DNA of 64,000 nucleotides, taken from NCBI GenBank assembly GCA_026770025.1, contig JAMXDE010000033.1:496001-560000 (forward strand). Reading direction: 5' to 3'. The stretch's first letter is position 1. Every line of letters starts with the position of its first letter. The notes beneath the pieces are model-generated. The model made no database searches, was not told the DNA's origin, and worked only from the letters and a program-made list of their open reading frames with translations. Made by a program: the position numbers and the translations under genes. This stretch comes from Craspedostauros australis. Taxonomy: Eukaryota > Bacillariophyta > Bacillariophyceae > Mastogloiales > Achnanthaceae. This document shows, in pieces, positions 757 to 60,465 of the stretch.

Positions 757-1125
757 CTACGATCGATCCGTCAATACAGACACGTTGTCTTCTTCTTCAT
801 CGGCAACGCCGTCGACATTGCTGCTGCCGTTTCCGTCCTTGCCGTCTCCGGATGGTCGGCTGCGGATGCTACCACCTGCCGGGTTGGAAGCGTTCAGCAT
901 GGGACCGACCGACGACAGCATGCCTGAGGAGCCTCCGATGATATCATCGGATGACATCCCGTTGTTGCCAAAATCGACCCTCGTCATACCCCTCTTGCTC
1001 ACGGTGGCTTCCTCCAGCTCGTTCAGCTTCTTCACGTTGAGGTACTGCATGCGCCGTGTCCTGAGGTCGTTCACCTTCGGCATGCAGCCCCAGGCGATGT
1101 AGTACCGCGCAGCATCCATGAAGTA
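757..1125 (-). pseudogene. 3' part of the same NTPase gene, separated by the LINE
   Basis: This frame holds the 'YFMDA' codons of the target-site duplication (1125-1111) followed by 'ARYYIAWGCMPKV', then a helical stretch and an acidic/Ser-rich tail to a stop at 757-759. 'YFMDA' is also where host sequence ends on the other side of the LINE (9475-9461), in the same codon phase. 'A-x-Y-F-x-x-A-x-x-x-Y-x-x-W-G-x-x-x-K-v' is the usual last repeat of this NTPase class. It therefore reads as the displaced C-terminal 117 residues. The upstream part of the open frame (1200-1126) is translated LINE 3' end and is not host coding. Confidence 0.75.
1111..1125 (-). repeat. Target-site duplication of LINE-1, 3' copy
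   Basis: The 15 bases read TACTTCATGGATGCT on the minus strand. They match 9461-9475 perfectly and encode YFMDA in the NTPase frame on both sides. The outermost T could alternatively belong to the element's tail. Confidence 0.9.
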
Positions 1126-1166
1126 AAATAAAATAAAAACGCAAAGATTAAACCCTCTTATGAGGC

Positions 1167-1193
1167 TGCGCCGGCGGCGCTTTTCTCCGCCTC
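1167..1193 (-). other. Conserved 3'-end stem-loop of LINE-1
   Basis: The minus strand carries GAGGCGG, a 2-nt spacer, AAAA, then a perfect hairpin GCGCC-GCC-GGCGC (1168-1180). LINE-2 has the same module at 54686-54713 with the same stem but a different loop (TTC). It sits about 41 nt from the 3' end of the element. It is a likely recognition structure for the element's own reverse transcriptase, by analogy with 3'-UTR-dependent LINEs; that role is inferred. Confidence 0.6.
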
Positions 1194-1282
1194 CTTTCAA
1201 CCTCGCGCCTGGCGCGAGGGGAGCACGGAATCTGTGTGTTGTGATTTTGTGTAGTATGCATGTCCGGTTCGCTGGAGCTGCA

Positions 1283-4200
1283 TCAACCTTGACCTAGGTC
1301 GGGGTGCGCTTGCCGGCGACATTGGAGCCACTTGAGCAGGGCGCCAGAGGCGGCCGGCTCGTGGATCGCTAACGCTGCTTGCTCTACCCATACCGCGATC
1401 AGAGGTATCGCCGCATCCTCGCCCGGCTTCGTTTTAAGAAGTCGTTGATGAAGTATCTGGTCCTGTTCGAGGCGGAGCCGAAGTGATTGCGCCCTATCTC
1501 GCAGGGACTGAATCATTTCGGCTTCGGCCGAGGTTGGACTGTCGAATTGAGCCTCGTTTCGTGACGCCCACTGATCCCACGCTATATGCCATATACGTCG
1601 CACTAGTTGCCGCGCCCACTTTGAGGCTGATCTTCTCGACTTTTGCTGCTGCAAGAATTCTTGTTGGAGAGGTATCCAGTCTTGGATTAGCAGCCCCTGC
1701 CGCAATGCGACCGGGCCGACCGATCTCTGTCTGCGCGCCGCTTCATGAAGCTGGCCGCCTTGACTTGTCGCCCAGAGATACGCCGATCCTTCAAGCTGGC
1801 TGCGCAGGATGGCCAGAATGACAGTAGTGACCCCCGGCGCTGTAGGATATCGCCTGAGCCACCTGCCAATGTCCTTCAGATGACGACGTGCGACTCCTCG
1901 GCGATCCTCTCCTGGGCATCGCCAGAAATGCTGCGCGTCCTCTCGTGCGTCGCAGCTGGGACACGCTTCTGACTGCCTGAGACCCCACCTCTTCATTCGC
2001 GACCCCATTGGAGCCTCTCCTGTGATTAGTTTGACGGTCAACAGGCGTCGGGTGAAGCTGAGCTCCCGAAGAGCTGTCCCTACCGCGTCCCACGCCACAT
2101 GTATGGCTTGATCCACCACCTTTCTGGATGCCAGCACTTGTACCGATTCCCTGAATGTTGGAGCGTGCGCCACTGTCCTGTATGCTATCCGTGTCAACTT
2201 CCTTTGGTTCGTGAACGAGACTCTTTCTCCATGTATATGGCCACCATAGACCGCCGAGGCTGGCAACGAAAGCCTCGCTGCTGCTGCCAACTTGTCCGCG
2301 ATGATGTTCATGTGCGCCCATTGGTCGAGGGAATTCCAGCTGGCTTGATCGTCCTGATGCCCCTTAACATGGCGCCCATTGACTCGGATGGATATTTCAT
2401 GGCGGAGATTTCTTACCGCCCGCAGCATATCGGCGTCAGTTGACGTGGGTGACAGGCTCCATTCCGGGTCCAGGGCATGTAGAGCTCCGACGTTGTCGCA
2501 GCCCACCACCACTGCGCCAGCGGTGATGCCGTAGACTTCACAGACCGTAGCCACTATCACGAGAACTCCATACATACCCGCAAGCTCTGCTCGATGGGAC
2601 TGCATGGTTCCGTCCGTAGCAGGTGCCAAGTTCGTTATCAGAAGCTGTGCCGTTTCGCCATTGCACTTTGCGAGGAGTACCGCGCCCGACGCGCCTGTAC
2701 CGTTGGCCACAGACCCGTCGCTGCACGCCATGAGCGTACCTCGCTGGGCTGCCTTGGCCACTGTGTCCCAGCTGCCTTGAATTTCGTATCGCCGAACTGA
2801 CCATTTCTTCGACGATGGCAGCCTCACCAACGCTTCGTCCATGCCTACCGAGTTCGCTCGGTCGGGCTGGATTCCTTGCGCTGTATTCGTGATGATGAGC
2901 TGTGCTCCCTGCCAGTAGCCGTCGGCCACATGTGATGCCTCGTCTGCGTTCCCTTCCATGAGTTCGTAGGCCCGTCGTCTGCCCCGCTGTGGCACCCGTC
3001 GAAACTGCTGCTGTGATAGCGGTAGGCTCACTCTGTCACTGGCTGGGTCCCAGAACACCTCCGGCCGTTGCGACGAGTACTCGTTCCAATCTCCCAGCGC
3101 TTGCCCCAACCTTGCCGACTGGGTGCGTGACGCTTGGAAGAGGCCTCGGATGGCTTGACTCCACAAGCGCCAACTTGCGCTGCCAATGCTTCCCACTGGC
3201 GGCCACCGCATACAAGATTGCCGAAGAGGGATGCGACCTGGCTGTTCCGCCGCTGGGTGAAGATTGCGACCGTCCGCCGTGACGATGTCCGACATCCAAA
3301 ATACTTGCTTGGATATCCTGCATAGATTGACAATTCGCTCTGCTTGTTGCCCGAGCTTGAGGGCTTTGATGCGCACCATGATTGGCGCATCACTTTCTCG
3401 TGGGGCGTGCAGTATCCGGTTCTCCCACTGCACTGTAATGCCCACCCTCTTTGTCTCCAGCCACACAGCCTTCATCCAGGATTCCGACGCGAGATGGCTC
3501 CATGCGCTAGGCTCCATGCTCATCACATCCGGTACTCCGACTTGAATTGTCATCAACTCCACCAGAGTGTGCATGAGCTTTCCCGTCAGCGTGCTCCGCA
3601 TCCAATGCCGCGCTAGGGCTTCGAGATGTTTCGTTACTTGCACATAGTACAGGTGATGCACCTCCATGCCCAGCCCTTCTGACGGCCCGAATATGATCTT
3701 TCTCGACATGTTACGCTGCAGACCTGCTGCTGGAAGTGACGCCAACAGGACCGGCCGCATGATTCGCTCACATGCCGCGTTCGTGAAGGTTGCGCTCATT
3801 AGCGGGTATTCCAGCGCCTTCCAGATGGTCGCCTTCATCGCTATCCATGCATGTATTCGGAGCATGCGACTTCGCCTCATTTTATCCGCCCACTGGTTGG
3901 CCTTCTTTGTGTAGTACTGCTCGTTATCATCCTGGATCCCATCGTGTCGCACCATTACCCCCAGCGCCTTGCGCGCTTGATCAACGTGGAGCCTCACAAG
4001 CGTCGACCGCTGCTGGCTGTCCGGTTGTCGGATGCTGATGTCACCTGGCTGCTCGGCGATACTCTTATACTGCCACGCCTGGCCGTCCCACTTGAACGCC
4101 ATGAGGTACCAATAACTTTTTCTGGGCTCGAGTGCACCTCCTGTCGCTCGCAGCATTCCCTCCCATGAATCAACCACTTGCTGAATTTCTGATATGCATG

Positions 4201-6763
4201 CTTCCGGGTCGCTTACGTCTGCTTTGATTGTGTGTATGAGATCCGTGTCGTCCACGAAGGAAAAGCATACCAATTTGGTGCTGACCGATTGGGTGGGGCT
4301 GACCGACGCGAAGCCGTATCCTTGGGCCGACATCGCCTTCATGATCGGGGAACTCATTGCCACCCATCCAGCGGGAGATATTCCGAGCCCCTGCAGCAAT
4401 CCTTGTAGCCTGGACCCGCGGTGAGGGTATGTGCGCGTAGATTTGCCAAACCCTGTGAGCACGTGATGTTGCATAGACTGTACTGCTGCCGTCACGCTGC
4501 GACCGACCACTTCTGGCACCCCTATTTGTTGCATGCTGAGCTCCAGAGGTACGTGCGCCATTCTGTCGTAGCAGCTTTTCGCATCATTGGAGCAAATGCA
4601 GCTGGAGGATGCCGTCAACCGCACGATGTCGTCCGTCATTCGATTGTTCAGACTGACCTCTGCTGCGCTGCGTTGCTTCCGGCTTCCATATTGTTCGTCT
4701 GGCAGCAGGTGATGCTTTTCCGCGTGCCTCATCATTATTTTCCCTATCCATTTCAGATTGGCATTGAAATCTCCCTCCACAAGGCTTATCGTTCGGAACC
4801 TGGAGACTCGAAAGTTGCCTGGCTCCTTTAATAAGGTGACATCGGTGCACACTAACCACCGTTGAAGGTTGTACCCAGTGCGTAGAGATATTTCCCTCAT
4901 GACAGCGTCGACATGCGCGAGCTCGTCGGACCGAGCATTTGCTTTCCATAGACCGAAGTGAAGCCCTGATGGACCTGAAGTGGTTCTTTCGCGTGCCTTC
5001 GACCACAGCCTCTGATGACTCTCCGTCGTGACGGCTAAGTCTGACTCTTCCCATGGGATGACTTCAGTCTGGCTGAGAGCTTCCAACAGTTTGGTCGTGT
5101 GTAGGTCGAGCTTTCGTTGGTGCCGCCGACTTGCTCCTTGCGCTCCGTATTTTTGCACGTCTCGCGCGACTGCCGGTTGTTGGAGAGGAGTGACATACGC
5201 CTGCCGGTACTTGGCTTCGTTGGCTCGCATGCATTGCTTGATGACTGCGTGCTCTCGATCGTACACCTGTTCTTCTCCGTCGGGATTGGTCGCGATCACC
5301 ATCGTCACTTTGCCACTCGAGTCATATTCCCCGACCGCCGCTCGTATAGCCTTGAACGTCTCCACTGTCTCCTCTCGCTTTTGTATAGAGATCAGAGCTG
5401 CTTCTGACGTTGTGTTGCCGTCTTTGGCCATCTCTGCCGCTCTGGATTGTAGGAATGTTTGTCTGTGTTTGAGGGCGTTTTTCTTGGCAGTCTTCCAACG
5501 GGAGTGCGCTCTCTTCCGCTTATCTTCCAATTCGTCCTTGCTGAGAGTTGCTGTCCGCGTGGCAATGCCTGCCTGCTTCTTTGCTCGCTCGTACCATCTG
5601 GAACTGACTTTCTTGCCGTTCCTCCTCTTCCATGCCAGATTCCAAAATTGTTTCTCCATGGCTCTTCGCTTTATCTCCGGTGAAAATGGAACTCTTCCTG
5701 TGTGGATTGGACGAGCTCCTTTCTCTGCTTGGAGCATGATTCTCGCCCTGTCTTGATCGATGGACTCCATGGTAGCCGCTTGTGCCGACGTGAGCTGATT
5801 CGATGCGCCAACTGCCTTTCGGAGCTCGTCAACGCGCCCTCGAATGTTCTTGTCGCGATAATGTGCTGACACCGCCTTTTGGTACCTCCGAACTGTGATC
5901 GGTCTGTTGAGCTGAACTCTGCGTCCCTCGAACTTCCTGGTGGGCTTGCTGGTTGTGCCAAAGATGGATTCTTGGGAGACTTCAATCCATGCAGTCCTGT
6001 GGTCCCATGGACCGAAGGCGCTGAAGCCTGATCTCACCACCTGCACCGACTCGGACACCCACAGCCCGTCGATGACTCGATTGGATCGGGCACGCACGCT
6101 AGTTGACACTCCTGGAGCATTCGGATGTCGGCTGAGTATGGACTCCTGCATGTGCTGTCTTTGCATCATGGTCGCCACCTGGGATTGCATCACCGGCATG
6201 TTGACGTCGCCGCCAACTATTATGGTTTCGCCTGCTTGTCGCCATTCTTGAAGCGCCGCCTCCAGGTCGTGGATGAGGAGTTCGATGGGCGAGCTATCAT
6301 TCCCTTGCGATTCCAGCCACGATGCCTGTTGGTTGTACACTGTGCCTGCACTTTGTCCGCCTTTGACAGGAATGTACACGCTCACGAATCGAACCGTGGA
6401 GTCCTGTCGTCCTCTGACTGCTATGCTTGACCACCTTCCCAGCCGGCGTGGGTCATTCTCCAGACTTTTATACCGTCCGGTTACGTTCCCCACGATTGTG
6501 CAAGCTGTTCCTCCCCATTGGCGTGTGCTCCCCAGCTTCTCCTTCTCATTGTATGCCAGCGCATGTCGTTCTGAGTGCATGTGTCGCTTTGCTCTTGTTT
6601 TCCATGAGTCGACCCTGCCCAGTTTCGACCAGTTGATGCCGATCTCCGTGAGTAAGGCGACGTCTATCTTCATTTGCTTCATCCACTGCCACATATCGTC
6701 ATTCTTCCAATGTTTCGACTCGGCGTGAAGGCATCCCACGTTGAGAGCAGCTATTCGTATCAT
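1283..6763 (-). CDS. LINE-1 ORF2 polyprotein: endonuclease, reverse transcriptase, RNase H, zinc finger
   Basis: The product has 1826 residues. An APE-like endonuclease occupies about 1-260: 'ALNVGCL' at the N-terminus, E40 in 'LLTEIG', 'GGDVNM' near 184-189, and the terminal 'WDHRTAW' near 253. Residues 260-580 form a basic helical linker. Reverse transcriptase spans about 590-900, with motif A 'SNDAKSCYDR' (D727), motif B 'LQGLLQGLGISP' and motif C 'FVDD' (D838, D839). RNase H is at about 1345-1495: D1349 in 'CSDGS', E1393 in 'HRAELAG', D1423 in 'GCDNVGALHAL', then 'HVKGHQDD'. A C-x2-C-x7-H-x3-C finger follows at about 1601-1616. It would nick target DNA and prime reverse transcription in the nucleus. 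All catalytic residues are present, so the protein is potentially active. The first ATG (6763) directly precedes the endonuclease. Confidence 0.95.
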   Translation of the reverse strand: MIRIAALNVGCLHAESKHWKNDDMWQWMKQMKIDVALLTEIGINWSKLGRVDSWKTRAKRHMHSERHALAYNEKEKLGSTRQWGGTACTIVGNVTGRYKSLENDPRRLGRWSSIAVRGRQDSTVRFVSVYIPVKGGQSAGTVYNQQASWLESQGNDSSPIELLIHDLEAALQEWRQAGETIIVGGDVNMPVMQSQVATMMQRQHMQESILSRHPNAPGVSTSVRARSNRVIDGLWVSESVQVVRSGFSAFGPWDHRTAWIEVSQESIFGTTSKPTRKFEGRRVQLNRPITVRRYQKAVSAHYRDKNIRGRVDELRKAVGASNQLTSAQAATMESIDQDRARIMLQAEKGARPIHTGRVPFSPEIKRRAMEKQFWNLAWKRRNGKKVSSRWYERAKKQAGIATRTATLSKDELEDKRKRAHSRWKTAKKNALKHRQTFLQSRAAEMAKDGNTTSEAALISIQKREETVETFKAIRAAVGEYDSSGKVTMVIATNPDGEEQVYDREHAVIKQCMRANEAKYRQAYVTPLQQPAVARDVQKYGAQGASRRHQRKLDLHTTKLLEALSQTEVIPWEESDLAVTTESHQRLWSKARERTTSGPSGLHFGLWKANARSDELAHVDAVMREISLRTGYNLQRWLVCTDVTLLKEPGNFRVSRFRTISLVEGDFNANLKWIGKIMMRHAEKHHLLPDEQYGSRKQRSAAEVSLNNRMTDDIVRLTASSSCICSNDAKSCYDRMAHVPLELSMQQIGVPEVVGRSVTAAVQSMQHHVLTGFGKSTRTYPHRGSRLQGLLQGLGISPAGWVAMSSPIMKAMSAQGYGFASVSPTQSVSTKLVCFSFVDDTDLIHTIKADVSDPEACISEIQQVVDSWEGMLRATGGALEPRKSYWYLMAFKWDGQAWQYKSIAEQPGDISIRQPDSQQRSTLVRLHVDQARKALGVMVRHDGIQDDNEQYYTKKANQWADKMRRSRMLRIHAWIAMKATIWKALEYPLMSATFTNAACERIMRPVLLASLPAAGLQRNMSRKIIFGPSEGLGMEVHHLYYVQVTKHLEALARHWMRSTLTGKLMHTLVELMTIQVGVPDVMSMEPSAWSHLASESWMKAVWLETKRVGITVQWENRILHAPRESDAPIMVRIKALKLGQQAERIVNLCRISKQVFWMSDIVTADGRNLHPAAEQPGRIPLRQSCMRWPPVGSIGSASWRLWSQAIRGLFQASRTQSARLGQALGDWNEYSSQRPEVFWDPASDRVSLPLSQQQFRRVPQRGRRRAYELMEGNADEASHVADGYWQGAQLIITNTAQGIQPDRANSVGMDEALVRLPSSKKWSVRRYEIQGSWDTVAKAAQRGTLMACSDGSVANGTGASGAVLLAKCNGETAQLLITNLAPATDGTMQSHRAELAGMYGVLVIVATVCEVYGITAGAVVVGCDNVGALHALDPEWSLSPTSTDADMLRAVRNLRHEISIRVNGRHVKGHQDDQASWNSLDQWAHMNIIADKLAAAARLSLPASAVYGGHIHGERVSFTNQRKLTRIAYRTVAHAPTFRESVQVLASRKVVDQAIHVAWDAVGTALRELSFTRRLLTVKLITGEAPMGSRMKRWGLRQSEACPSCDAREDAQHFWRCPGEDRRGVARRHLKDIGRWLRRYPTAPGVTTVILAILRSQLEGSAYLWATSQGGQLHEAARRQRSVGPVALRQGLLIQDWIPLQQEFLQQQKSRRSASKWARQLVRRIWHIAWDQWASRNEAQFDSPTSAEAEMIQSLRDRAQSLRLRLEQDQILHQRLLKTKPGEDAAIPLIAVWVEQAALAIHEPAASGALLKWLQCRRQAHPDLGQG

Positions 6764-6902
6764 AGTGCCACCCTTTGTTCGCGGTGAGTCGCCCCAATGC
6801 CGGTCGTGGAGGATCAGACCTTCCTGACTCCTTTCCTCCGGGTTTGCATCCGTTGGGCTTGCGGGGGTGGTTGGCGATGCTTCTCCTGCCCCCAGCCTCG
6901 CG

Positions 6903-9332
6903 TTAGTCTTGGTCCTCGCCCCTACCCTGGCTTAAGGCAGGTGGCGTGGCCGTGGACGCCTCCAGTTGGGCGCGCAGTGCCGCTATGATTGACTCTTGGT
7001 TGAGGATCTTGTTCGATTGTTCTTGCACTCGAACTCGACTGGCCGCCAGCTCTTGGGCTTCCCTCGCCATTTTCATGGCCTCTTCGATCTCTGCTTCGAT
7101 GTCATCTGCTTCTGTTTGGGATTCCGGAATGGTGTATCGTGATGAAGCTGCTGATTTGCCGTACTCTGTTCCAAAGGTTTTGAAACTCTCGTCCTCCAAT
7201 CTGGCTTTCTTTCGTTTGGGGGATGCGTTGTCGCTCTCCATGAGGTTGAGACCCTCGATGACGACATTTCCAAACCCCTCGTCCAATAAGAAGTCCATTT
7301 CTTCTTCCGTCTCCACGTCCACATAGTCTCCACTGGCGTCCTTCATCATGGTGCTGCTCATCGCTACGATGTCTTCCGAGAACCATTTGTTCGTTGACTC
7401 GTTGATTTCCGTTGAACATCTGATGCCAATTGTGTGAATCAGTCCTACCGCCTGTGCAAATCGCTCCTCGAAGGCCACGATGTGAATCGCGTCTTCCTTG
7501 CCGTCCGCCATGTGAGTAGTGCTGACGTCGTGGATGAGCGGATTGCCTTCGCTGGTTTGCTGTGACAGGAATTCTCGCAGAGTGATGGTGCCCGTTTCCG
7601 GATCCTTGGTGTCCAACGCGAAATCTCCTTTGAGTTGCTCGTATTTCAGCCTACGCACGTAGTTCTGGTGTTTCCGAATCATGGCTTGCACCTTCATCGC
7701 CGTCTTCGCTCCCATGACTGATGTGCCAGGTTTGGGCACGTATCTGTAGTTGAGTCCTTTGCGATCGCCATCTTTGGTGTTGAAGATTTTTCCGAGGAGC
7801 TTCGATGCCCTGCGCGCGTCCTTGACGTCCGCGTGCAGATGGAGCGCCATCCACGGAGAGTTGTACCAACTTCCACCGTCTTGCAGGTGCTTCGTTTTTA
7901 CTTCTTCCGATACCTTCCCCATGAATTTCACCCTGCCGCCCACTTTGAGCTTGGCTCTCTTCTCCTCCAGCAACTGGTTGATGATCCCAAGCGTTTGTTT
8001 TGCCTTGGTGAAGTTGCCCGAATATGCCATGAAGCCTATCTCTGTTGTGTGTTCGGCGTCCTTCAAATCCTGGATGTACGCGTACTCTCCTTCGTGGTAT
8101 GCTCCTTCAAGCTCTGTGTTCCAGCTCGTGAACACCTGCATTTCGATGTTCGAGGACATCAGGATCTGTAGGTATACGTCTTTGCTTTTCGATGTCGGGT
8201 TGGCCCTGCCGATGTAGTATCTGAGATCTTTCCACATGGCTGGTATGTCGGCCTCAGTGATGATGCATCCCTTTGCCTTGTTCTTCTTGTACCACGGGCT
8301 TATGACGAGACTTTGATCCATACCTTTGGCTTCGTCGTACCACTGGCGAAAGCGCTCTTGGAAATCCCGAACTGGCGTTTTCGTGCCCTTGGGGATTTTG
8401 AGCCGCATTTCGAATCTTTCGTAGTATCGTCGTCTTGGGCTTGACATTTGGGGCTGCTTCTTCTGATGCTTGGTCCATCCTTCGCCGTCTGCTTCTGGGT
8501 TAGCATTGCTCTCGTTTGCTGCCGGAGCTCGAGCTGTGCTGAGACTGCCATCCTTATCTCGCGGTGCTGGCGATGTGATCTTGGTGTTCGTTGTGTAGGC
8601 TGTCAAATTGGCCTGCTTCAGAGGCTTCTTTGTTACCAACCCCATGAGGTCGTAGCTGTCGTCGTCGCTGTCCATCTTCATTGCCTCGTCCGCTGAGTCC
8701 ACTTCAGGAGGGGGTTTCTCCGCCATGTATTGGCAACCCATGTAGGCTGTTGCTGCCGCCCACAGAATCGTCATCTGGTTGGCTATCATCGATTTGCCTC
8801 CTGGCTTGGCTTCGTCTGAGAAGCATTTGGCCGGATCTGTTAGTGACAGGTCCGCTACCAGTTGCTTGATCGCCTTTCTGTCTGGATCGTCCGACGGGAC
8901 TTTGGATTTCCCCAACTTCGTGGTTCGCCCGTCCATCACTGTTTGGAAGAATATGGTCATGTCTTTGATGCTGGGCATGGTTGCTGACACCATGGAAGTA
9001 TCTGCCTTCTCCCACATGGCTTTCTTGATGAGAGCTTTCTTCACTTGGTTGTGCATTGCGCGCCCGTCTTCGCCGTACTTCTCGCTGGACTCGAATCCCT
9101 TCGCTTGCTGTGCGATCACGTCGTTGAGTTTTTTCCACCGCGCCGCGTTCGGATCTCTCCATGTCGTCGCTACTTCTCCTCGTTTCTCCATCAATTCGTC
9201 TTCGTTGCTGCTCGGATTTGGCTTGGGAGGAGGCTTGGGTGTTGCGGTTTGCACCGCTGGCCCATGCACCTCCGACATCTCGACGTCGTCTGCTTTATCC
9301 TCCATGATTCTGACTTGCTTTGTCACCTTCAT
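6903..9332 (-). CDS. LINE-1 ORF1 protein (809 aa, unrecognised type)
   Basis: This is the first ORF of LINE-1, presumed to bind the element RNA. I see no CCHC knuckle or obvious RRM. The N-terminus is acidic and Pro-rich. A conserved block follows around 'PSDDPDRKAIKQLVADLSLTDP', then a Ser/Pro-rich linker, then a second conserved block of about 400 residues beginning 'RRYYERFEMRLKIPKG'. The C-terminal 70 residues are strongly helical and would form a coiled coil ('EIEEAMKMAREAQELAASRVRVQEQ' region), which suggests oligomerisation. Both blocks recur in the 869-residue ORF1 of LINE-2 with low identity, so the protein is under selection. The host NTPase frame overlaps its first codon at 9329-9332 only by readthrough into the leader. 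The role is inferred from position. Confidence 0.85.
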   Translation of the reverse strand: MKVTKQVRIMEDKADDVEMSEVHGPAVQTATPKPPPKPNPSSNEDELMEKRGEVATTWRDPNAARWKKLNDVIAQQAKGFESSEKYGEDGRAMHNQVKKALIKKAMWEKADTSMVSATMPSIKDMTIFFQTVMDGRTTKLGKSKVPSDDPDRKAIKQLVADLSLTDPAKCFSDEAKPGGKSMIANQMTILWAAATAYMGCQYMAEKPPPEVDSADEAMKMDSDDDSYDLMGLVTKKPLKQANLTAYTTNTKITSPAPRDKDGSLSTARAPAANESNANPEADGEGWTKHQKKQPQMSSPRRRYYERFEMRLKIPKGTKTPVRDFQERFRQWYDEAKGMDQSLVISPWYKKNKAKGCIITEADIPAMWKDLRYYIGRANPTSKSKDVYLQILMSSNIEMQVFTSWNTELEGAYHEGEYAYIQDLKDAEHTTEIGFMAYSGNFTKAKQTLGIINQLLEEKRAKLKVGGRVKFMGKVSEEVKTKHLQDGGSWYNSPWMALHLHADVKDARRASKLLGKIFNTKDGDRKGLNYRYVPKPGTSVMGAKTAMKVQAMIRKHQNYVRRLKYEQLKGDFALDTKDPETGTITLREFLSQQTSEGNPLIHDVSTTHMADGKEDAIHIVAFEERFAQAVGLIHTIGIRCSTEINESTNKWFSEDIVAMSSTMMKDASGDYVDVETEEEMDFLLDEGFGNVVIEGLNLMESDNASPKRKKARLEDESFKTFGTEYGKSAASSRYTIPESQTEADDIEAEIEEAMKMAREAQELAASRVRVQEQSNKILNQESIIAALRAQLEASTATPPALSQGRGEDQD

Positions 9333-12300
9333 CGTCGTTTTGGATCTTTCGTGTTACGTAGAATTTGCTGTAGATTTCGTACTTGATTTTGTTGATGTGT
9401 GTCGTTTTTTGCTTTTACTAGTGTTATCGTTGTTTTTGTTTTTTCGGGTTCTGGTATTATAGCATCCATGAAGTAGTCGGCGACCAGCTGCTCCTTCTTC
9501 ATGCGCAAGAATGCTTCGCCGGCCAGTTCCGAGGCGAGGGCCGCGTCATGAACGAAACCGTTCTTTCTGGCGACGAGAATCGCCGAGTCGTACGCCTGCT
9601 TCACCTTGTTGTGATGATGGCTGTGGATGGCCCGCAGCTCGGCCTTCACCAGTAGGCGCCGGTGCAGGCAATTCGTGGCGCCGAAGCGCACCATCTTGCC
9701 CAACGACTTGTCGGCAGTTTTCAGCTTCTGCAGGTGCTTGCGCTGCTTCGTCTCGCGGTAGCAACCTGCCGCAGCCAACCCGCTGAACATCGTGCGCGAT
9801 GCGACCTGGCCGTACGATGGGTCGCCCATCGTCACGAGTGCGAACCGATCCGCCATCTCGTCCGCCTTCTTGTATTCGAAGAAGTACACCAGCACCTGCA
9901 GGCGCACCCAGTATCCCGTGATCAGCTCGAGGACGCTATCTTTCTGCTGCTTCCCATCCCTCTGCACACCAAAGTGCCGGACCTCATCCCAATCGATGGG
10001 GAACTCTCCCATGAGGGACTTCATCACCTTGAAGTGGTTCTTCGCGGCAGATGTGCCCTGCGAGAACTGGTACTGAATGGCCTGGCGCGTCATCGCGTTG
10101 GCGGCCTGCACGATGCTGCGCAGGTTCTGCCCGGCGACGTAGCCATGCATGATCTGCGTGTGCCAGTTGATAAAGGCGCTATCCATGTCACCGCGTTGCA
10201 TCGAGGACTTGTAGGCGGCCTCGAAGAGGTTGAACTGCTCCTGGTACGGTTTGTCCCACCCGCAAATGAAGGCGCTATCGACGAAGTTCACCCAGGCCAG
10301 CACGTGTTTTGCGTTGGTGATCTCGACGATCCGCTTGGCCAGGTATGCGCCACGCGTGGCGGTTTCGTGGTCGTTCTTCATGCGGCCTTGCATGGCATAC
10401 GACAGCAGGACGTGCGGTGAGGACCGGCACAGTCCGTGCTTCTTGATGAGCTTCACCTGCTCACAGTACGTCACGAACCAGAGCAGCGTGCTCTGCGTGG
10501 CGAAGGCGTGCTTGGACAGATTGTTGAGCAGCTCCATCGCGGTCTCCACCACGGGATCCGTCGTGATCGGGAGGCTCAGGATCTCCTCGTCCGAGTAGTT
10601 CTTGAAGAAGTTGTACGCGCCGCGTCCGCCCTTCGCGGCATGCAGGGCGAACCACCGCTTTGGGAAGACCTGGAGCTCTTGCGCCACGCCCAGCAGCACC
10701 TTCAGTGCGGCCACATGCTGACCTTGTTGAGCAAGTGCCTTGGACATCGCGACGTACGTCGTGAGCTTCTCCTCCAGAGTGTTGGCTCTGCCGAGGACGC
10801 TTTCGAAGAGCTTCGTGGCGACTTGGTAGTTACCAAGCGCCGCCTCCGTGATGCCGCGGATCTGATGGAGGTGGATGAAGAGGTCGTAATGCTTCTCGCT
10901 CTCGCGGCCGTGAACCTTTTGAAAGCTGGCATGTGCCTTCTCCATGTACTTCGACGCCGTCGTGAGCGCGCCCTTGGAGAGAGACTTGTCACCGACCTCT
11001 AAATTCAGCTTGGTGAGGAACAGCTTGTCCTTGTTGGGGGCACTGTTCAGATGATCTGCCGCTATGAAGAGCAGGCCATCGTCACCGTCCTGACTGGAGT
11101 TGGCGTTGTCTGCCGTTCCGGCGTTGGGCCGTGAACCGTTGAAGATGTCCAGGATGCTGCGTCCGATACTCACGCGTAGCTTGTCGCGATACTCGCCTGG
11201 AGGGATGGTGTTGTAGGCCGCTTGCTGGATACGGTCATGGGCGAATCGGTAGCTCGAGGCACCGATCGTGTTGTGCAGCAATCCTTCCAGCACCGCCGTC
11301 TCGAGGAACAGCTGAATGTCAATGCCCGATCCAGGTGGCACCACATCGCTCTCATCCTTGCCCCAGCACGCGAGGTCTTTGTCATAAGAATCAACGAGAT
11401 TTTCGATGTCATCCCACACGGCCTGCAACGTCTTCACTTCGAAGTGACACTGGATGTACGAGGCCACCGTGACGAGCTGCTGCAGCGTCTTGGGCAGCCG
11501 CCTCATCTTGGCCGTGACGAGATCTTCGATGTTGTTGCTGATGGACAGGGAATGCAACGAGTGGAGATCGTTGTCGCAGCTGCCATCGCAATCAGGATTG
11601 GACGCCCATTTCCATGTGAAGAGAATCTCGTCAAAGACGATGTGCCGCTCTCGCTGCAGCTCCTGCAAGGCCTGGGACGTGTAGAATGGATTTCCAAGCG
11701 TCTTGCCATGCAGCTTGGCCGAGAGTGATTCGAGCGTCTTGGTCGGCGCATCCAGCATCGATGAAAGCCATTCCTTGACTTCGTCGACGCTCATGTTCTG
11801 CAGCCTGACCTGCGACATGGTGGGGTCGTATCCCGGCAGTTGGTGAAGCGTGTTCATCATGTCCACCATCGGATTGTCGCTGGGAAGATTGAGTGCGAAG
11901 GGGTTCGTCTCGGTTTTCGAGTCCGCGTCCAAGTCCGTTTCCGGTTCCGTCTCGTCCTGCTTGTGCTCGTCCTCCCGAATGGTTCCAAACAGCATGAAGT
12001 TATCTATGGTTGGATCGAGGAGGATACGGTTGAGCAGCGTGAGGGTGGATGACGAAGCCCATTGCAGATCATCGAGGGAGAGGACGATCAGCGGGGACTG
12101 CGACTGAGATCGCGACTCGTGCTTGCTGGAGCTACTGATAGACTCATCCGAAGCTTCCATGAGCGGCGATGAGATGATCTTGATGAGCCTCACGAAGAGG
12201 AATTGCACCCGCTTCCAGGTATCGCTGGCATTGACCATCAACCCCCTGTGGGCGGTGCTCATGGAGGCGCCTCTCGATCGCACGGACGCATCCAACGTGC

Positions 12301-13120
12301 CCTCCGTCGATTGCGCCTGGTCGGGTGCCATTTGCGATGGCAACAGGGCGATCAGCGACGGCACGATCTGGATCAGCAGCTCGATGTCATCGGTTGACAA
12401 TCCTGCCTCGAGCTTGTCTTGATAATATTTCATTGCTTCCTTCGGTTCCTGCTCGAGCTGTCGCACAAAGCCAGCGACGGCCTGCGACAGAGCGATGTAC
12501 GGATCGTTCATTCCGTTGTACTCATCGAGCTTGCCACGGAGGATATAGATGTTCTTCCTGTGCATGTTGTCATCGTCGTTTTCCTGCTGGCTGTCCAGCC
12601 GGTCCTCGAGGTTGGCGAAGAACTCTTCCATGAGCTTTGATTTTCCAGTTCCGCTGACACCTGACACGAACAATGCTGGAATGAGATGCTGATCCAAACC
12701 AACCGTCTCGTCCTTCATGCTGCGCGCTGCAGTGCCTTTCTTCGCATCGTTGTTGCTGTTATTTCCGTTGTTGTTATTATTTTCGGTCGTGGAGCCCGAT
12801 GGCTCCGTATCTGTTTCGAGCTCCTCTTCCGAGGTGGATTCAAGGACAGGTTCCAACGCATCGCCGCTGACGGTCTTGGTCCTCTGCGCTCTGAATTGCT
12901 CCTGCTTCGACAGCACTCGCCCATGCTTCGATCGCCGTTGCTCGATGATCCTTTCATAAGCATCGAAGAACTGCTTCATCTTGTCCATCCGACCGAACAT
13001 GGTGTCGGGGAGAGTGCTGGGTGCATGATCGTAGGCCGCGGTGATGCCGATCGTCTGTATTGGGATTTTGCACTTGACAGGGCTGCTGTCCGTGGCGTGG
13101 GTCGTCATCATTGCGGCCAT
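9329..13120 (-). CDS. AAA_16-type NTPase with helical-repeat region, 5' part, cut by a LINE insertion
   Basis: The open frame encodes 1263 residues. Residues 1-1220 are host sequence (down to 9461); the last 43 residues are read from the LINE 5' leader. Walker A is GVSGTGKS at 154-161 and Walker B is 'LIVLSLDDLQW' at about 344-354. This is the AAA_16/STAND-like NTPase arrangement seen in large signalling proteins. The preceding 'FGRMDKMKQFFDAYERI' is the usual lead-in of this class, here separated from the P-loop by a Ser/Glu/Asn-rich insert. A long alpha-helical, TPR-like region follows from about 600 to 1215. I see no kinase, cyclase or histidine-kinase domain. The frame resumes at 1125-757 beyond the LINE; without the insertion the protein would be about 1337 residues. 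Upstream, 13121-13150 is a (GTT/GGT)-rich 5' flank. The partner and substrate are unknown. Class call fairly sure; function unknown. Confidence 0.75.
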   Translation of the reverse strand: MAAMMTTHATDSSPVKCKIPIQTIGITAAYDHAPSTLPDTMFGRMDKMKQFFDAYERIIEQRRSKHGRVLSKQEQFRAQRTKTVSGDALEPVLESTSEEELETDTEPSGSTTENNNNNGNNSNNDAKKGTAARSMKDETVGLDQHLIPALFVSGVSGTGKSKLMEEFFANLEDRLDSQQENDDDNMHRKNIYILRGKLDEYNGMNDPYIALSQAVAGFVRQLEQEPKEAMKYYQDKLEAGLSTDDIELLIQIVPSLIALLPSQMAPDQAQSTEGTLDASVRSRGASMSTAHRGLMVNASDTWKRVQFLFVRLIKIISSPLMEASDESISSSSKHESRSQSQSPLIVLSLDDLQWASSSTLTLLNRILLDPTIDNFMLFGTIREDEHKQDETEPETDLDADSKTETNPFALNLPSDNPMVDMMNTLHQLPGYDPTMSQVRLQNMSVDEVKEWLSSMLDAPTKTLESLSAKLHGKTLGNPFYTSQALQELQRERHIVFDEILFTWKWASNPDCDGSCDNDLHSLHSLSISNNIEDLVTAKMRRLPKTLQQLVTVASYIQCHFEVKTLQAVWDDIENLVDSYDKDLACWGKDESDVVPPGSGIDIQLFLETAVLEGLLHNTIGASSYRFAHDRIQQAAYNTIPPGEYRDKLRVSIGRSILDIFNGSRPNAGTADNANSSQDGDDGLLFIAADHLNSAPNKDKLFLTKLNLEVGDKSLSKGALTTASKYMEKAHASFQKVHGRESEKHYDLFIHLHQIRGITEAALGNYQVATKLFESVLGRANTLEEKLTTYVAMSKALAQQGQHVAALKVLLGVAQELQVFPKRWFALHAAKGGRGAYNFFKNYSDEEILSLPITTDPVVETAMELLNNLSKHAFATQSTLLWFVTYCEQVKLIKKHGLCRSSPHVLLSYAMQGRMKNDHETATRGAYLAKRIVEITNAKHVLAWVNFVDSAFICGWDKPYQEQFNLFEAAYKSSMQRGDMDSAFINWHTQIMHGYVAGQNLRSIVQAANAMTRQAIQYQFSQGTSAAKNHFKVMKSLMGEFPIDWDEVRHFGVQRDGKQQKDSVLELITGYWVRLQVLVYFFEYKKADEMADRFALVTMGDPSYGQVASRTMFSGLAAAGCYRETKQRKHLQKLKTADKSLGKMVRFGATNCLHRRLLVKAELRAIHSHHHNKVKQAYDSAILVARKNGFVHDAALASELAGEAFLRMKKEQLVADYFMDAIIPEPEKTKTTITLVKAKNDTHQQNQVRNLQQILRNTKDPKRR
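9461..9475 (-). repeat. Target-site duplication of LINE-1, 5' copy
   Basis: This is the perfect partner of 1111-1125. It marks the 5' junction of the LINE; sequence below 9461 is the element's A-rich leader. Confidence 0.9.
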
Positions 13121-28933: not shown

Positions 28934-30544
28934 TGTCGAGATGTACATGCGTGTATATGTCAAGATGTACGTGTATATGTGCATCATTCACCTGTTATTC
29001 TCTTGTTCATGTACGGACGGTACAACTACATTCGTGTCATTTGTATACTGTGATTTGTCAGAATTACAGTGGAAATGGAACACACGAAAATGAGCAGATT
29101 TTCTGGAGGAAATTTGCAATCAACGATTTCTGAGAGAATCAGGAACATCATCCGTCCATCCATCAATGGAAACATATGGTATCGAGCGAAGCTCGATGTA
29201 CCTCCCAACTAAGCCCCAGATGATGATATCATCTGACAGACCACAGCATCACCAATTGTCGAGATGTACATGTGAGTATATGTCGAGATGTACGAGTATA
29301 TGTGCATCGTTCACCCGCTATTCTCTCATACGCACTTGGACGGTATAACTACATTCGTGTCGATAGTATGCTGTGATTCGTCAGACTTACAGGGGAAATG
29401 GAACACACGAAAAGGGGCAAGATTTCTGGAAGAAATTTGCAAATGACGATTTCTGAGAGAATTGGAAGATCGTCCGTCCATCCATCAATGGTACCAAGAG
29501 AATCTCGAGGTACTTCCCAACTAAACCTCAGATGACGATATCATCTGACAGACTACCGCATCACCAATGGAACGTGACATCTGGAGAGCAGAAGGACGCC
29601 TACTGACGTCGACAGGATGTCATCGTGTCACCACGTCGACATCTGTCTCCAAGTCAGAGCAGGAGGCGAAGATCCGATGACCGAAGGGCATCAGCATCAT
29701 GGATACAGAAGGTGAACTTCAAATGGCGAGTACTCATGGAGTAGGAGCCAGTACTGAATGAACGGAGTGTCGAATACGGAGTACGTATCGAACACGGAGT
29801 ATCGTGTGCGACGAGCACACGATGTTGAGAGAGAGAGAGAGAGAATACAGAGAGAAGCGAGAGAGCATCTCGCGTACCGACTCATAGTCGGAGACTGAAT
29901 CTACGAAACAGATTGAAGCGCCGAGAGCATCGGGCAAGAGAACGGGCGTACACCGAGAGCATCGGAGTAGCCAAGTAATGAAATAGCAAACGAACGACTA
30001 TCAACCAACACCATCTTCCACGATCGTAGGTTACCGTGAGCGGAACTTGCCAACAACCAATGGAACGTGACATCTGGAGGAACAGGAAGACGACAGCTGA
30101 CATAGACAGGATGTCATTGTGTCACCACGTCAACATCTGTCTCCATGTCAGAAGCAGAAGGTGAAGATTTGATGACCAAAGGGCATCAAGATCATGGATA
30201 CACGAGATGGAGTTCAAGTGGCAAGCACTCGTGGAGTAGAAGTCAGTAGTGAACAAATGGAGTGTCGAATGTGGAGTATGCATTGAACACGGAGTATCAT
30301 GTAGCATGAACATGCAACATTGAGAAGAGAGAGAATATGAATAGCAGCGAGAGAGCATCTCGTGTACCAACTCATAGTCGGAGACCAATCTACGAAACAC
30401 AGAGACGTGCCAAAAGCATTGGGCAAGAGAACGGAGACACAAAGAGCATTGGAGTGCTCAAGGAATGAAATAGCAAACAGAACGACTATCAACCAACACT
30501 GTCTTCCACGATCGCAAGTTATCCGTCCACAGAACTTGCCAACA
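28934..30544 (+). mobile_element. Older solo LTR of the Copia-2 family, split by a younger LTR
   Basis: Two blocks, 28934-29256 and 30062-30544, together form one diverged LTR of about 806 bp. It starts TGTCGAGATG and ends TTGCCAACA, the same ends as the Copia-2 LTR at 49364-50156 (inverted). Divergence from that LTR is plainly higher than for the younger copy inside it. No 5-bp flanking duplication is visible at its outer ends, so it is old or recombined. Confidence 0.8.
29257..30055 (+). mobile_element. Younger solo LTR of the Copia-2 family inserted in the older LTR
   Basis: This 799-bp LTR (TGTCGAG...GCCAACA) is a close inverted match to 49364-50156. It is flanked by ACCAAT at 29251-29256 and 30056-30061. 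In the uninterrupted LTR the same site reads 'CACCAATGGAACG', so the duplication fits a copia insertion of 5 bp (a sixth base could match by chance). No internal element sequence remains, so it is a solo LTR left by LTR-LTR recombination. A (GA)n run lies at about 29828-29843. Confidence 0.85.
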
Positions 30545-32407: not shown

Positions 32408-32515
32408 TGTGAGAGTCTGTGTCAGATGGAGAAACAGAGGATTTATGAGGTTGTTCTGCTGTTGTGGAGAAGGCAGACACAGCTGTGCCAGACTGACGTC
32501 GGCCAGACTATGACA
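32408..32515 (-). repeat. 3' LTR of Copia-1 (108 bp)
   Basis: It is identical to 38927-39034. It starts TGTGAGAG and ends ATGACA on the plus strand. A TGACGTC word (CRE-like) lies at 32494-32500. Confidence 0.95.
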
Positions 32516-32524
32516 CCCCCCCAC
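32516..32524 (-). other. Polypurine tract of Copia-1
   Basis: GTGGGGGGG on the minus strand abuts the 3' LTR, which is where plus-strand DNA priming occurs in LTR elements. Confidence 0.75.
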
Positions 32525-32582
32525 GGTCGCTGGGTGGAAAACCCAGTGACCGGAACAACTCGATTAAATGTATTATGTAAAA

Positions 32583-38851: not shown

Positions 38852-38926
38852 TGACGCAAACTTCGTGTGTGACCGCGGCAGGGATGCGTGAAAAGATCGT
38901 GAGATCAGAAAGAAGGCTCAGAAACC

Positions 38927-54828: not shown

Positions 54829-57800
54829 CTATGCCGGGTTTGTTGGTGGCACTCGCTGGTTGGAGGGCCGGCGTGTGGGGAACGAAGGCGCCGCTGGCTG
54901 GGTTGTAGATTCGTCATGGCTGGCTGCTCGACGACGCAGCCACGCCATCTGTTCGGGCGGAACAGTGGCCTGTACGTGTGGCATGCCGTGTAGCATGGAC
55001 AGAAGCCACTCGGCTTTCCGGGGCTCAGTGTCGGGAAGGTGCTGAGCCAGCTGGCGGAGGTGGCGGGGGACAGATGCCGATGGTAATTCAAGCAAGGCAT
55101 GGCAATATGAGTGCATGCGCTGCGACATCATGCTGCGCTCGCCGGCGTTGTGCAGCGCGTGGTTGCGGCTTGTCCACTGTTGGAGCGCCATGTGCCACAG
55201 CTCGTGAGTGACCTCAGCCTGCCAGAAGACCTGTCGTCGGCGGTTGGAAGATGGCTGGGGGTTTGGGCTGTGGCGGATCCACTCCACCGACCATGCACCC
55301 CACAGGAGGCCGTCCCATCCAACTCCATGCTGCGCAACTTCGATGGCCTGAGTGGCAGACCGCCGGATGCCTTGGGGTGGGGCGCCTCCTTGCCGCAGCA
55401 CGCGCAGGGCTTTGACCAGAAGTTGAGCTGCATCTCGCTTGACCCTGGGCGGCTGTATGATGTGGCGTATGCGCTGGATGCACGCGTCCCAGAGCTCTTG
55501 ACTCTCGGCGCTCTTGCACTGCATCACATGTTGGTTGGTCTCGACACATCCGCAGCGGGGGCACGCCGTCCGGACAGATTGTTGGCGCCGGCACATGTTC
55601 TTGCCCGTCGCTGCATTACCCGACGCCAGCTTGAGTATGGTGCGTTGCTTGCCGCCTCTCCATGTGGTCATCACCTTCTGGAGCGGGGCCCAGTCCACCG
55701 AATATCTGTCCAACGACCCCCACCTCTGGCGCCATTTGAGGCGCAGTCTGGCGGTCACCGTCACGTCCGATACCGCATGGTAGCTTGCTTCAGACAGCCA
55801 GTCATCCCCAGCACGTACCGCCCAACCCGCGGACTTGGGGTTGCCGCGCACCGTGCCCCATGCCCCTGCGGCGTCCGTCACTTGCCACTGCTGGCCAGCC
55901 TCGTGGTCCGCCACCACATTCAGGACTTCCCACGCCGAGATTTGGTGACCGAACTGGGAGTCGGCATGGCCTTTGACGTGTTGGACCTCGCAGCAAACCG
56001 CCGACGTCCGCAGCACGTGCTGGATCTCGCTGCGCAAATCGTAGTCGTTGTCGTCGGCTTGGAGGAGTTGTGCCCGTGTGCTTGCCCTGATCGCCTGCAT
56101 ACTGTCGCACGCTATAGTAGCGGACCCCTGCACCTGCGACCATTGTGCGAAGGCTTTCAGGAACTGCATCGTGAGGAGCACTCCCGCCGTCTCTGCGCGG
56201 TTGGAGTCCATCACACGCGAGCCTTCCGGGACTTCCGACTGGATGAGAATGCCCGCTGTAGGCTCGTCGAGCCGGTCCTGGATGACCGCGGCCGTGGACC
56301 CACGCTGGTCCTTGGCAGAGGCGTCACAGCATGCCACACACGTCCCGCGCACGATGGAGTCGGCGATAGCTCGCGCTGAACCGTAGATACGTACTTGCTG
56401 AAGCATGGCCGCTGCCAGCCCCCCAAGCTGTGCAATGTGCCCGTATAAAGAGCATGGGCGTCGCTGTGCAACTTCCGCACCCATAGACACCACCGTCGCC
56501 AGCCCCCGGTATTCGTCGACGTCCATGCCAGCCCTGCCCCCGACGCGGCGACACCGAAACTCCAATGTCTGGACCCGTTGAAGCGGAGATCCGGAGCACC
56601 GCCGCCATACCGACCCGTCAATGTCCTGTACCACCCGGAAACTCCGGAGGTGTTTCCACTTGCCAAGCGGTTTGCGCAGGATCATGCCTGGTCTGTCATC
56701 GACGAGGAGAGTGCGGACCATGTTGTCCCAGGCTGCCCACGCCTGGCGCGAAGGAGGCACCGCCGCTGGCCAGACGAGGTCTTCCTGGATCCGCGGAGCT
56801 CGACGGTGTTGGGCAACCACTGGGTGGATGCCGGTACCGGCCGCGTCGCAGATGTCTGACACCCAGAAAGCTCGAAGGTGCACACGCACTGCATTGGCCT
56901 TGCGGAGGTCACCTTCATCAGCGCCCCGTTCCCAGAAGGCCTCCATGATGGTCCCATCACGTTCGCGAGGCATTACGAGTGTCGGTGCCACCTGATGGAC
57001 GGCCAATCCGCTCTCAGTCATCATGCGGATGGTGCTTGACCACCAAGAATGGGCGGTCCAGCGTTGCCAGCGGTGCTGTTGGGCTTGCAGCTGGTCCACC
57101 GTGCCTGCCCATAGCTGGAGCTGCAGCAACGACGCGCGGAGCAGGCTGCCCGTGGTGGTCTGGGCGTCGAAGTGACGCCAGATCATCGCCAGGTGTGCCT
57201 TGCACTGGACTGTGAACAAGTGCGGGATAGCCAGGCCGTTGAGCTTCCTGGGCCCATGGACGTACTGCCTCGCGATGGTTCGGACGATCCCCATGTGCGG
57301 GAGAGCCGTCATGAGCGCCGGCCTCATGATGCTTTCGCATTGGCCCTGCGTGAGAGTCGTGGTTGCCAGGGAGTATTCGAGTGCCGGCCAAAGAACTGCC
57401 TTGAGCGCAACTTCGGTGTCTTGCTTGGAGATGCGGGCCGTCCGAATGTGCGCCGCCCACGCCTCCGCCTTCCCTTGGAGATACGCCGCATGTTCTGCCT
57501 GGCCCCCGTCCCGCCGCTGCATCATGCCAAGGTATTTGCTGGCCTGGTGGACCGGCGCATGGTGCAACACTTGGTCCTCCCCATTTGCTCCTTTCATCCG
57601 GATGTCATGTGGACGCCACGACTTGTCGTAGTTCCATCGACTGTTGCTCCATTTGAACCTGACGAGCTGCCAGAAGCTCTTCTCCGGCGCGAGGCAGCCC
57701 CCTGAGGCTGTCAGCATGGACTCCCATTGCGAAACCACCGACTGGAATTCCCGGCACTGGGACGGAACATCGCGCGACCTCAGCGTGTGGACCAGGTTTG

Positions 57801-59601
57801 TGTCATCCACATACGCAAAGCAGACGAGACGCTGCATTGCGTCCGCTGTTTCTCCGTACGTGAATCCGAACCCTTTGGCTTGCATTCGCTCTATGAGCGC
57901 CGAGCTGATTAGCAGCCACCCTGTGGGGGCCACTCCTAACCCTTGGACCAAGCCTTGGATGGGCCGCGGGAGATGAATGCCGGAGTAGCTTGTCATGGAG
58001 ACCCCCAACCCCATGCTGATCCTGTGCCGCATGTTCTGCAGGGTGCACAGAACGCTGTCAATAGGTTGCCGAGGTGTGCCTTGCCGGCGCAACGCCATCC
58101 CGAACGCCGGGTGGGAAATGCGGTCGTAGCATCCTTTGGCGTCATTGGAGCACACCGCAGCGTCGCGCCCAGAGATCCGCATGATGTCGTCGGTCAGGCA
58201 CACGTTGACCAGGACTTCTTGCGCCGTGTGCATTTGGCGGCTGCCATACTGTTCTGCAGCAATGGTTGAGTTGGTTTCTGCATGTCTGCGGGCGGTCCGC
58301 CCCAGCTGCCTCGTATTCATGTTGAAGTCTCCCTCCATCAGCCCAATGGTTCTGGTCTTGGTGACGCTAAGGTTGCCCGGCTGCTTGCGCAGCTGCACGT
58401 CGGTGCACTGCTGCCACCTGCTGAGGCTGTAGCCTGTGCGATATGGGATGGACCTCATGATGGCGTCGATCGCCGCGAGTTGGGGGTCTTTGGTGTTGGC
58501 TTTCCAGCAACCAAAGTGGATGCCTGACGGTCCGGATGATGTGCGCTCTTTGATCTTGCGCCACCCCTCCACATGGTCTTCCGTGGAGATGACGGTATCC
58601 ATTGGTGCCCACGGGGTGGCTTGGGGCGGTCTGCGTAAGGCGTGCAACAGTTCCGCTGTACCTGTTTGGACTTGCGAAGGCACTAGCCCCCCAATGATTG
58701 CGTCCGCCGCCGGGGATGTGCCGTACTTCCCGACTCTGCGGCTGACCCGTCCCACGCAGAGATCGGAGGACCATGCTGCTTGATATTTCGCGATGTTGGT
58801 TTCGCAACATGCCTTGGCCACCTCCTCAGGCTCTGTGAGCACCCGTCCATCTCCGCCAGGGCCGTCGTGGACAACCATCGTGACCTGAGAGTCGAGGGCA
58901 GAACCAGCCAGGGCGTGTTTGATGCGTCGGAACCTCGCTCGTGTCTCTTCCCTCTCCACGAGTTGCCGCTTGTACTTGTCTGGGTTGCCCCCGCTGTGCT
59001 CGACGAACTCCGCGTTGGACTGCAGGAAATCCACCCGATGCTGCGCGGCCATTTTCTTCTCATGCTTTAGTTGTTTCCACACGCGGTTGCGCTCCATTGT
59101 CATCCCAGCAATGCTCATGCCCTTCGTGCGGACTTGGCAGAGCTGCGCTTGCTTTTTGAGTCGGTCGATGGTCGATCCTTTCACTTTGTGGCCCTGTCTG
59201 CGCCGAATAGACTCTGTCCAGAACTTGTGGGCCTTCTGTATTCGTGCCACCAAAGGCGAGTAGGGGACCTTCCCCATGCGAACCTTTCGACATCCCCGCT
59301 CGGCTCGGAGCATGGCCTTGGTGCGGTCTGCGTCGATGCTTTCGATGGTCGCCGACTGATGTGCAGTGAGAGGCTGATCAGATATAGACTTCTCCAGGGC
59401 CATGGCTCTCTCCAGGAGCCGGAGTTGTTGCGCCGCCTTGGCATATTCCTCCAGATATCTGTTGACCGTCGCCGGGCTTTGTAGCTGGAGTCGGCGCCCC
59501 CGGAACGGTTGCGTTGGCGTGTTGCCCTGCCCCAGGAGATGAGTGGCTGAGAAGTCGGCCCATATCATGCGGTGGTCCCAACAGCCGTATGGCGTGGCCC
59601 C
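54829..59601 (-). pseudogene. LINE-2 ORF2, part after the internal stop: reverse transcriptase, RNase H, zinc finger
   Basis: This part is in the same frame as the endonuclease part; a single TGA (59604-59602) separates them. The first ATG after the stop is at 59568. It begins 'GATPYGCWDHRMIWADF', which holds the last catalytic Asp-His of the endonuclease. RT: 'SGPSGIHFGCWKAN', motif A 'SNDAKGCYDRI', motif B 'IQGLVQGLGVAPTGW', motif C 'AYVDDTNLVH'. RNase H: 'CCDASAKD', 'NRAETAG', 'ACDSMQAI', 'HVKGHADS'. A C-terminal finger follows, 'CPRCGCVETNQHVMQC'. All motifs match LINE-1 ORF2 in order. Apart from the stop the frame is intact, so inactivation is recent unless the stop is read through. Confidence 0.88.
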
Positions 59602-60465
59602 TCACTGCGTGGCTGTAGCTTCTTGCGAGGTCCAGATTCCGTCGATTTGCATGTTGCTGCGGTTGCGGATTTGGGTGGCCGTCGGCTTCTGGTGCTGACT
59701 CGAAAACACTTCGTGCAACCCTTCCTCCGATAGCATAGTGCTCATCTGCGACGCACGCACGTCCATGTTGATGTCCCCTCCGAGTATCACTGTCTCGCCG
59801 GCTTGACACCAGAGGTGGACTTGCTGCTGCAGTTCCTGCATGTGTAGACTGATAGGGTCTGTGTCTATGCCTTCTGCGGCTGCATTGGCCGCCAGCTGGT
59901 TGTATACCGTGCCTGGTGTCTTGGTCGACTTGTTGGCCACGTACGTCGACACCAGGCGTACCTTGATGCTGCCCTTGCCTTGCAGCAGCATGCTGATCCA
60001 TCTGCCCCAATTGTGCGTGTCAGACGTTGACGACAGTATGCGCCCTCTGGTGTTGCCTTGGATCATGATCGCAGTCCCTCCCCACTGGCGCACTCGAGTA
60101 GCATTGAGCCTGTTGTGAGACGTAGTTGTGCGCGACTGAGGGATGTTCTTTTGTACGAGCTCGTGCAGATGCATGTGCCTGGGCACCTTGCTCCAGTTGA
60201 TGCCCACCTCCGTCAGGAGCGCTATGTCCACGTGATGATGGCGAACTGTCTCCCAGAGATCCTGGTATTTGGGATCTGTGGCGTCGACGGGGAGGCCGCC
60301 GAGGTTGAGGGCTGCCACCCTTATGTGCCCTGGCGCTTTGTGTTGCGAGTCACCGCCAACTGGGGTGAATTGGTCGACCACCTCTTCCGTGCCTGGTCGA
60401 CCCATGAGTCTGTGCCTGTCGCTTTGCCGGCTGGTCTGCGCGCGGCTTGCGGTGCTTGCTAACAT
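59602..60465 (-). pseudogene. LINE-2 ORF2, part before the internal stop: APE-like endonuclease
   Basis: The product is 287 residues. A 47-residue leader is followed by the endonuclease: 'RVAALNLGGL', 'LLTEVGINWSK' (catalytic Glu), 'RQWGGTAIMI', 'LGGDINMDV' and 'MQIDGIW'. The frame stops at TGA directly after 'SQEATATQ', about 10 residues before the terminal D-H motif, so the product made here lacks the last catalytic His. The ATG at 60465-60463 overlaps the ORF1 stop in the sequence ATGTTAG. In LINE-1 the aligned position is Ser or Arg; a CGA-to-TGA change would explain the stop. Confidence 0.85.

Follow-up and report, generated by a model that had tools for sequence, protein, structure and literature searches.

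The window, the whole stretch of DNA analysed in this study, comprises 64,000 nucleotides of the Craspedostauros australis genome. At its left end lies a gene for an AAA_16/TPR ATPase, referred to as the host gene, interrupted by a LINE; a second LINE lies near the right end. The features are given below with their positions in the window and the evidence for each.

9476..13120, minus strand: 5' part of the host gene with the AAA_16 domain and TPR-like repeats (open reading frame, Pfam and homologues; putative start)
9461..9475, minus strand: first copy of the target-site duplication (TSD), TACTTCATGGATGCT (maximal exact repeat)
1126..9460, minus strand: full-length LINE of 8,335 bp (5' end common to other copies; 3' tail common across subfamilies)
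9333..9460, minus strand: LINE 5' UTR of 128 nt; read in the host frame, it codes for the end of the truncated host protein
6903..9332, minus strand: ORF1, 809 aa, open (related ORF1s in other copies of the genome)
1283..6763, minus strand: ORF2, 1826 aa, open (Pfam reverse transcriptase (RT); APE-like and RNase H-like residues; CCHC motif)
1126..1282, minus strand: LINE 3' UTR; hairpins predicted, tail of the TTTA type instead of poly(A) (comparison of copies)
1111..1125, minus strand: second copy of the TSD, TACTTCATGGATGCT (maximal exact repeat)
757..1110, minus strand: severed 3' part of the host gene (117 codons plus stop), starting with the conserved last repeat ARYYIAWGCMPKV (open frame and homologues)
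54829..63068, minus strand: second LINE, a diverged member of the superfamily of the first (parts resembling ORF1, endonuclease and RT)

The 15-mer TACTTCATGGATGCT occurs on the minus strand at 1111-1125 and 9461-9475, and no third site was found in the 64-kb window at up to two mismatches; two or more sites appeared in one of 100 shuffles. The repeat is maximal at 15 bp (preceding bases C and T, following bases A and G), and its two copies bound the 8,335-bp LINE (1126-9460, minus; GC content 55%) exactly. The insertion site corresponds to host codons 1216-1220, and the LINE has the same orientation as the host gene. A preliminary description of this DNA had claimed a 15-bp duplication at both ends of the LINE, read as YFMDA on either side in the frame of the host; the first claim is confirmed by the exact, maximal repeat found nowhere else in the window, and the second by translation of both copies. 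Its remark that the duplication keeps the frame is true but carries no evidential weight and does not point to in-frame targeting: since a TSD merely duplicates codons of the gene itself, both sides read in frame whatever its length.

Analysis of the host open reading frame (9329-13120, minus) revealed an AAA_16 domain (Pfam, E 8.1e-15) and a TPR_12 match under Pfam's cut-off. Counted from the putative start codon, the 5' part and the first TSD copy make up 1220 residues. The truncated frame runs to 1263 residues, of which the last 43 are encoded by the LINE, as its translation had been taken to indicate earlier. This ending depends on phase: read in either of its other phases, the 5' UTR stops after 0 or 34 codons. 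The host stop overlaps the ORF1 start as ATGA.

When the two flanks were joined computationally, an open frame of 1337 residues was obtained. Homologues were retrieved with the truncated host protein as query, so that the 3' piece had no part in their choice, and the 120 listed of 237 were used for the analysis of the junction. The joined protein aligned over the junction by at least 10 residues in 116 of these 120 and by at least 15 residues in 112, of which 107 have the G of the WG motif; the 120 homologues are mutually related and do not amount to 120 independent tests. With 20 shuffled 3' pieces, 2-45 of the 120 homologues crossed at 15 residues or more, and with the 43 LINE-encoded residues as tail only two did so. 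The conserved last repeat supplied by the 3' piece reads Y..A...Y..WG...KV..L. Both the earlier proposal that this piece holds the missing last repeat and the expectation that uninterrupted homologues join the two parts are thus borne out. Past the junction, 83 of the 116 alignments end within 45 residues and 33 continue, to a maximum of 116 residues; the evidence concerns the last repeat, and neither confirms nor refutes the distal acidic, low-complexity tail. Compared alone with one homologue (P0005), the 3' piece gave no meaningful match (BLASTP, best E 0.10), and the similarity is visible only in the context of the whole joined protein. Judged by these alignments, which bear on the first part of the 3' piece, this piece is the end of the host gene.

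ORF1 (809 aa) and ORF2 (1826 aa) of the LINE are both open, as the preliminary description had stated. The RT in ORF2 was matched by PF00078 (E 2.6e-09, residues 654-886), and FVDD is invariant in all six aligned ORF2 proteins. The five relatives of ORF2 that were found are database proteins without a family name, 22-28% identical. Residues E40, D186, N188, D232 and H255, which we read as an APE-like endonuclease motif, are invariant in six of six proteins, as are DGS 1349-1351, D1423, N1486, D1490 and A1493, which we take to be RNase H-like, and C1601, C1604, H1612 and C1616, presumably a CCHC motif. Pfam gave neither an endonuclease nor an RNase H match for the ORF2 of this copy (P0003); PF03372 (endonuclease) was found in two of the six aligned proteins. 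A PDB search with ORF2 alone gave no match at E up to 0.01, and with the ORF2 alignment the only match was the R2 protein (E 5.6e-4, 57 profile positions). The 20 repeat families listed, of at least 60, include no long terminal direct repeat. With an RT domain and a TSD at its ends without LTRs the element is a non-LTR retrotransposon, and the APE-like residues at the N-terminus of ORF2 place it among the APE-type LINEs. ORF1 had no Pfam match, and a protein search with 6,450 candidates returned none at E <= 0.001. Three diverged copies (L030, L031 and L033) carry related open ORF1s of 807-814 aa with 47-80% identity; that of L029 is 98% identical, and in L032 only a 523-residue part was found. 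A structure model of ORF1 from a six-row alignment was unusable (mean pLDDT 38.0, pTM 0.23).

A search of the 74.8-Mb, 90-contig assembly with ORF2 found at least 27 matches in at least 26 copies (26 of 581 first-look candidates scored). This set is biased to long copies since it was retrieved by ORF2, and is uninformative on the rate of 5' truncation. Both sides were compared in 25 copies, this insertion included and L019 left out, and 21 of them have an exact TSD of 15-18 bp (15 bp in eight copies, 16 bp in eight, 17 bp in four and 18 bp in one). These 21 copies share a similar 5' start, AATACCAGAACCC or a close variant, and a similar 3' end. Beside the TTTA-type tail, 19 of the 21 TSDs begin with T and have little else in common. 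The four copies in which no TSD was found are L015, which reads N on the 3' side, L016 and L025, whose examined stretch shows no intact 3' tail, and L020, in which 801 bp revealed no 5' end. Many lineages differ from this copy by 31-47% in ORF2 protein; the exact TSDs at 21 of 25 copies, and open ORF2 frames in lineages about one third to one half apart in protein, suggest many live low-copy lineages. Copia pol frames were observed upstream of L023 (L030:1612-3714, minus) and of L025 (L032:4139-6553, minus), on the opposite strand to the LINE at L023 and on the same strand at L025, which suggests nested or neighbouring insertions.

All 21 TSD-bearing copies end in a conserved block and a T-rich, TTTA-type tail without poly(A). 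Comparison of the block revealed a stem, P2, in which 87 of 88 cells are paired across 11 distinct helix haplotypes and five pairs have changed on both sides. The observed pairing was not reached in any of 2000 column shuffles, a count that supports the stem but is not a probability, because the rows are related elements. P1b is paired in 41 of 44 cells and P3 in 51 of 55 (observed pairing reached by 342 and 361 of 2000 shuffles, respectively), neither standing out from its shuffles, and P1a is without any variation among haplotypes. An Rfam search of window positions 1000-10000 gave no match at E up to 1. A conserved 3' stem-loop followed by a short-repeat tail, a feature of stringent-type LINEs, is seen here in the covariation of P2 and in the tails of the 21 copies, and the element would belong with these. 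A search of the assembly with the 3' UTR gave 40 scored matches among 93 candidates; several are without a linked, scored ORF2 match and may represent additional copies of the LINE, or else short elements with the same tail.

Other elements and repeats were also observed in the window. The ORF1-like part of the second LINE (60459-63068) shows 25% identity over 760 aligned positions; its endonuclease part (59602-60465, 40%) and RT part (54829-59568, 32%) are in the same frame with one in-frame stop between them. An open frame with a CCHC zinc knuckle (63105-63998, minus) lies just upstream of the ORF1-like frame, and a Copia pol ORF of 1496 aa (50177-54667, minus) adjoins the element. A further Copia element (32408-39035, minus; pol at 32583-36515) carries two direct repeats of 109 bp (32408-32516 and 38927-39035) without a difference between them and is, on that account, probably young. 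Adjoining direct duplications of 81-82% identity occupy 28934-30544.

Among the copies compared with this insertion over about 7.1 kb, the nearest were L002 (2.10% different), L022 (2.41%) and L003 (7.24%). Analysis of 7,132 four-way columns revealed 59 changes private to this copy, of which 41 are synonymous, 16 nonsynonymous and two noncoding, where 23% synonymous changes are expected without selection. From this excess it follows that most private changes arose under selection in source copies, and that few can postdate the insertion. With all 16 nonsynonymous changes taken as neutral, about 21 changes (0.29%) could have followed the insertion, a rough ceiling without sampling error. The mutation rate of Phaeodactylum is given as 4.77e-10 in PMC6604790; at this rate, assumed to apply here, the ceiling corresponds to about six million generations. 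The identical TSD copies and the open 3' piece agree with a recent insertion, and the earlier suggestion that the event is recent is hence supported, with a ratio of 41:16 and a post-insertion ceiling of roughly 0.3%. The site may, as that description also proposed, vary between alleles or strains.

Overall, our analysis indicates that the event at this locus is a recent, full-length LINE insertion cutting off the end of a conserved ATPase gene, and we hold with high confidence that the element entered the gene by target-primed reverse transcription. An older, fixed insertion would have left the shortened protein with its LINE-encoded end as the functional gene now and the 3' piece as a relic. 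It would account for the open frame of 1263 residues, and a search of the assembly with the 3' piece found one match only, the filled site, with no empty allele or orthologous empty site seen; the 3' piece, however, has kept an open frame of 117 codons, no difference separates the TSD copies and neutral changes can make up no more than about 21 of the 59 private ones, so that such an age is very unlikely. Slightly harder still to credit is removal of the LINE from the transcript like an intron, by which the full-length host protein would still be made. Both host halves are still open, as this would have it, and spliced RNAs of integrated LINEs have reportedly been seen in human, which was counted in its favour; a recent insertion would likewise leave both halves open, and the TSD is without GT and without AG. 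This excludes a splice site within the TSD and leaves cryptic sites elsewhere as possible ones. An introner-like element, whose splice site is supplied by the TSD, and a TSD-borne intron were rejected on the same grounds.

Next to no credence is given to a LINE family that targets genes or reading frames. Frames at the empty sites were counted at 21 joined sites with 640-base flanks and a threshold of more than 300 codons, introns not being considered. A sense frame was found at this site and at L021 (C6), the latter read as a Copia-like RNase H frame, and antisense frames at L011, L012, L023 and L026; these would fit targeting, but 15 of the 21 sites are in no such frame and the TSDs have little in common beyond the leading T. 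In-frame targeting is without support in these counts (two of 21 sense, four of 21 antisense, 15 of 21 neither), and the argument from the TSD is tautological. The most improbable of the explanations considered, to the point of being negligible, is an assembly chimera in which LINE sequence was wrongly joined to the gene. Repeats can cause misjoins, yet a misjoin would neither place a perfect TSD of 15 bp precisely at each end of the LINE nor leave flanks that are two halves of one conserved gene.

For the insertion of the LINE by target-primed reverse transcription the following course is proposed. The element's endonuclease would nick the antisense strand at the start of the later TSD, and the RT, probably recognising its own RNA via the 3' hairpins, would prime at this nick on the TTTA-type tail and copy through to the 5' end. 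The disrupted gene would then make at most a 1263-residue protein without the last repeat and the acidic tail, predicted to end in the 43 LINE-encoded residues. The ATGA overlap makes coupled reinitiation of ORF1 after the host stop possible.

The insertion constitutes a clean natural disruption allele, with its TSD, the two ends of the LINE and uninterrupted homologues all established. Insertion of a LINE into an exon is as such ordinary; of greater interest are the LINE family and its structured 3' end, and the many lineages that seem live at low copy number merit a proper survey. We tentatively raise the possibility, which we consider doubtful as a whole, of an undescribed stringent-type LINE clade with a previously unknown ORF1, whose many lineages (with ORF2 proteins 31-47% different from that of this copy) are active together at low copy number, and which at this site could be expressed from the host promoter, the ATGA overlap permitting coupled reinitiation. 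Among the papers listed by keyword searches of an open-licence library there was no account that we recognised of this element or of a diatom LINE interrupting an ATPase gene, which does not prove absence; a whole-word search of the main text of PMC8147415 found neither 'LINE' nor 'non-LTR'.

Comparison with known systems places the host protein beside the AAA_16/TPR module of cyanobacterial and other multidomain Ser/Thr kinase-sensor ATPases, which have the same AAA_16 domain and helical repeats ending in Y..WG...KV..L; a diatom homologue with this module is present in Seminavis robusta (P0008). This homologue and a DUF6824 gene, of a family biased to diatoms, make a diatom origin of the DNA likely. 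Unlike these ATPases, the host protein showed no kinase or sensor domain in the Pfam search, is only 20-27% identical to the AAA_16/TPR relatives listed, and is interrupted before the last repeat.

RTE elements are shorter than this LINE and are not known to carry an RNase H. The LINE shares with APE-type RNase H/CCHC non-LTR elements the two ORFs, a TSD of variable length and the lack, in the search made, of long terminal repeats. PMC5348765 describes an RNase H with a downstream CCHC in RNH-bearing non-LTR elements outside the oomycete and plant L1 groups, and the order within ORF2 would be the same (endonuclease-like region, RT, RNase H-like region, CCHC). It differs from these elements in an ORF1 without a relative in the protein search and in ORF2 relatives that are 22-28% identical and bear no family name. 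Among diatoms, RTE-like elements, which are likewise non-LTR elements, are reported from Thalassiosira and Phaeodactylum in PMC2806351. Stringent-type LINEs are reported to need a 3' stem-loop, and eel UnaL2 and zebrafish ZfL2-1/2 have, according to PMC4176376, the same arrangement of conserved 3' stem-loops and a short-repeat tail without poly(A); the present LINE differs from them in its TTTA-type tail, in the lack of an Rfam match and in that recognition of its hairpins by the RT is putative.
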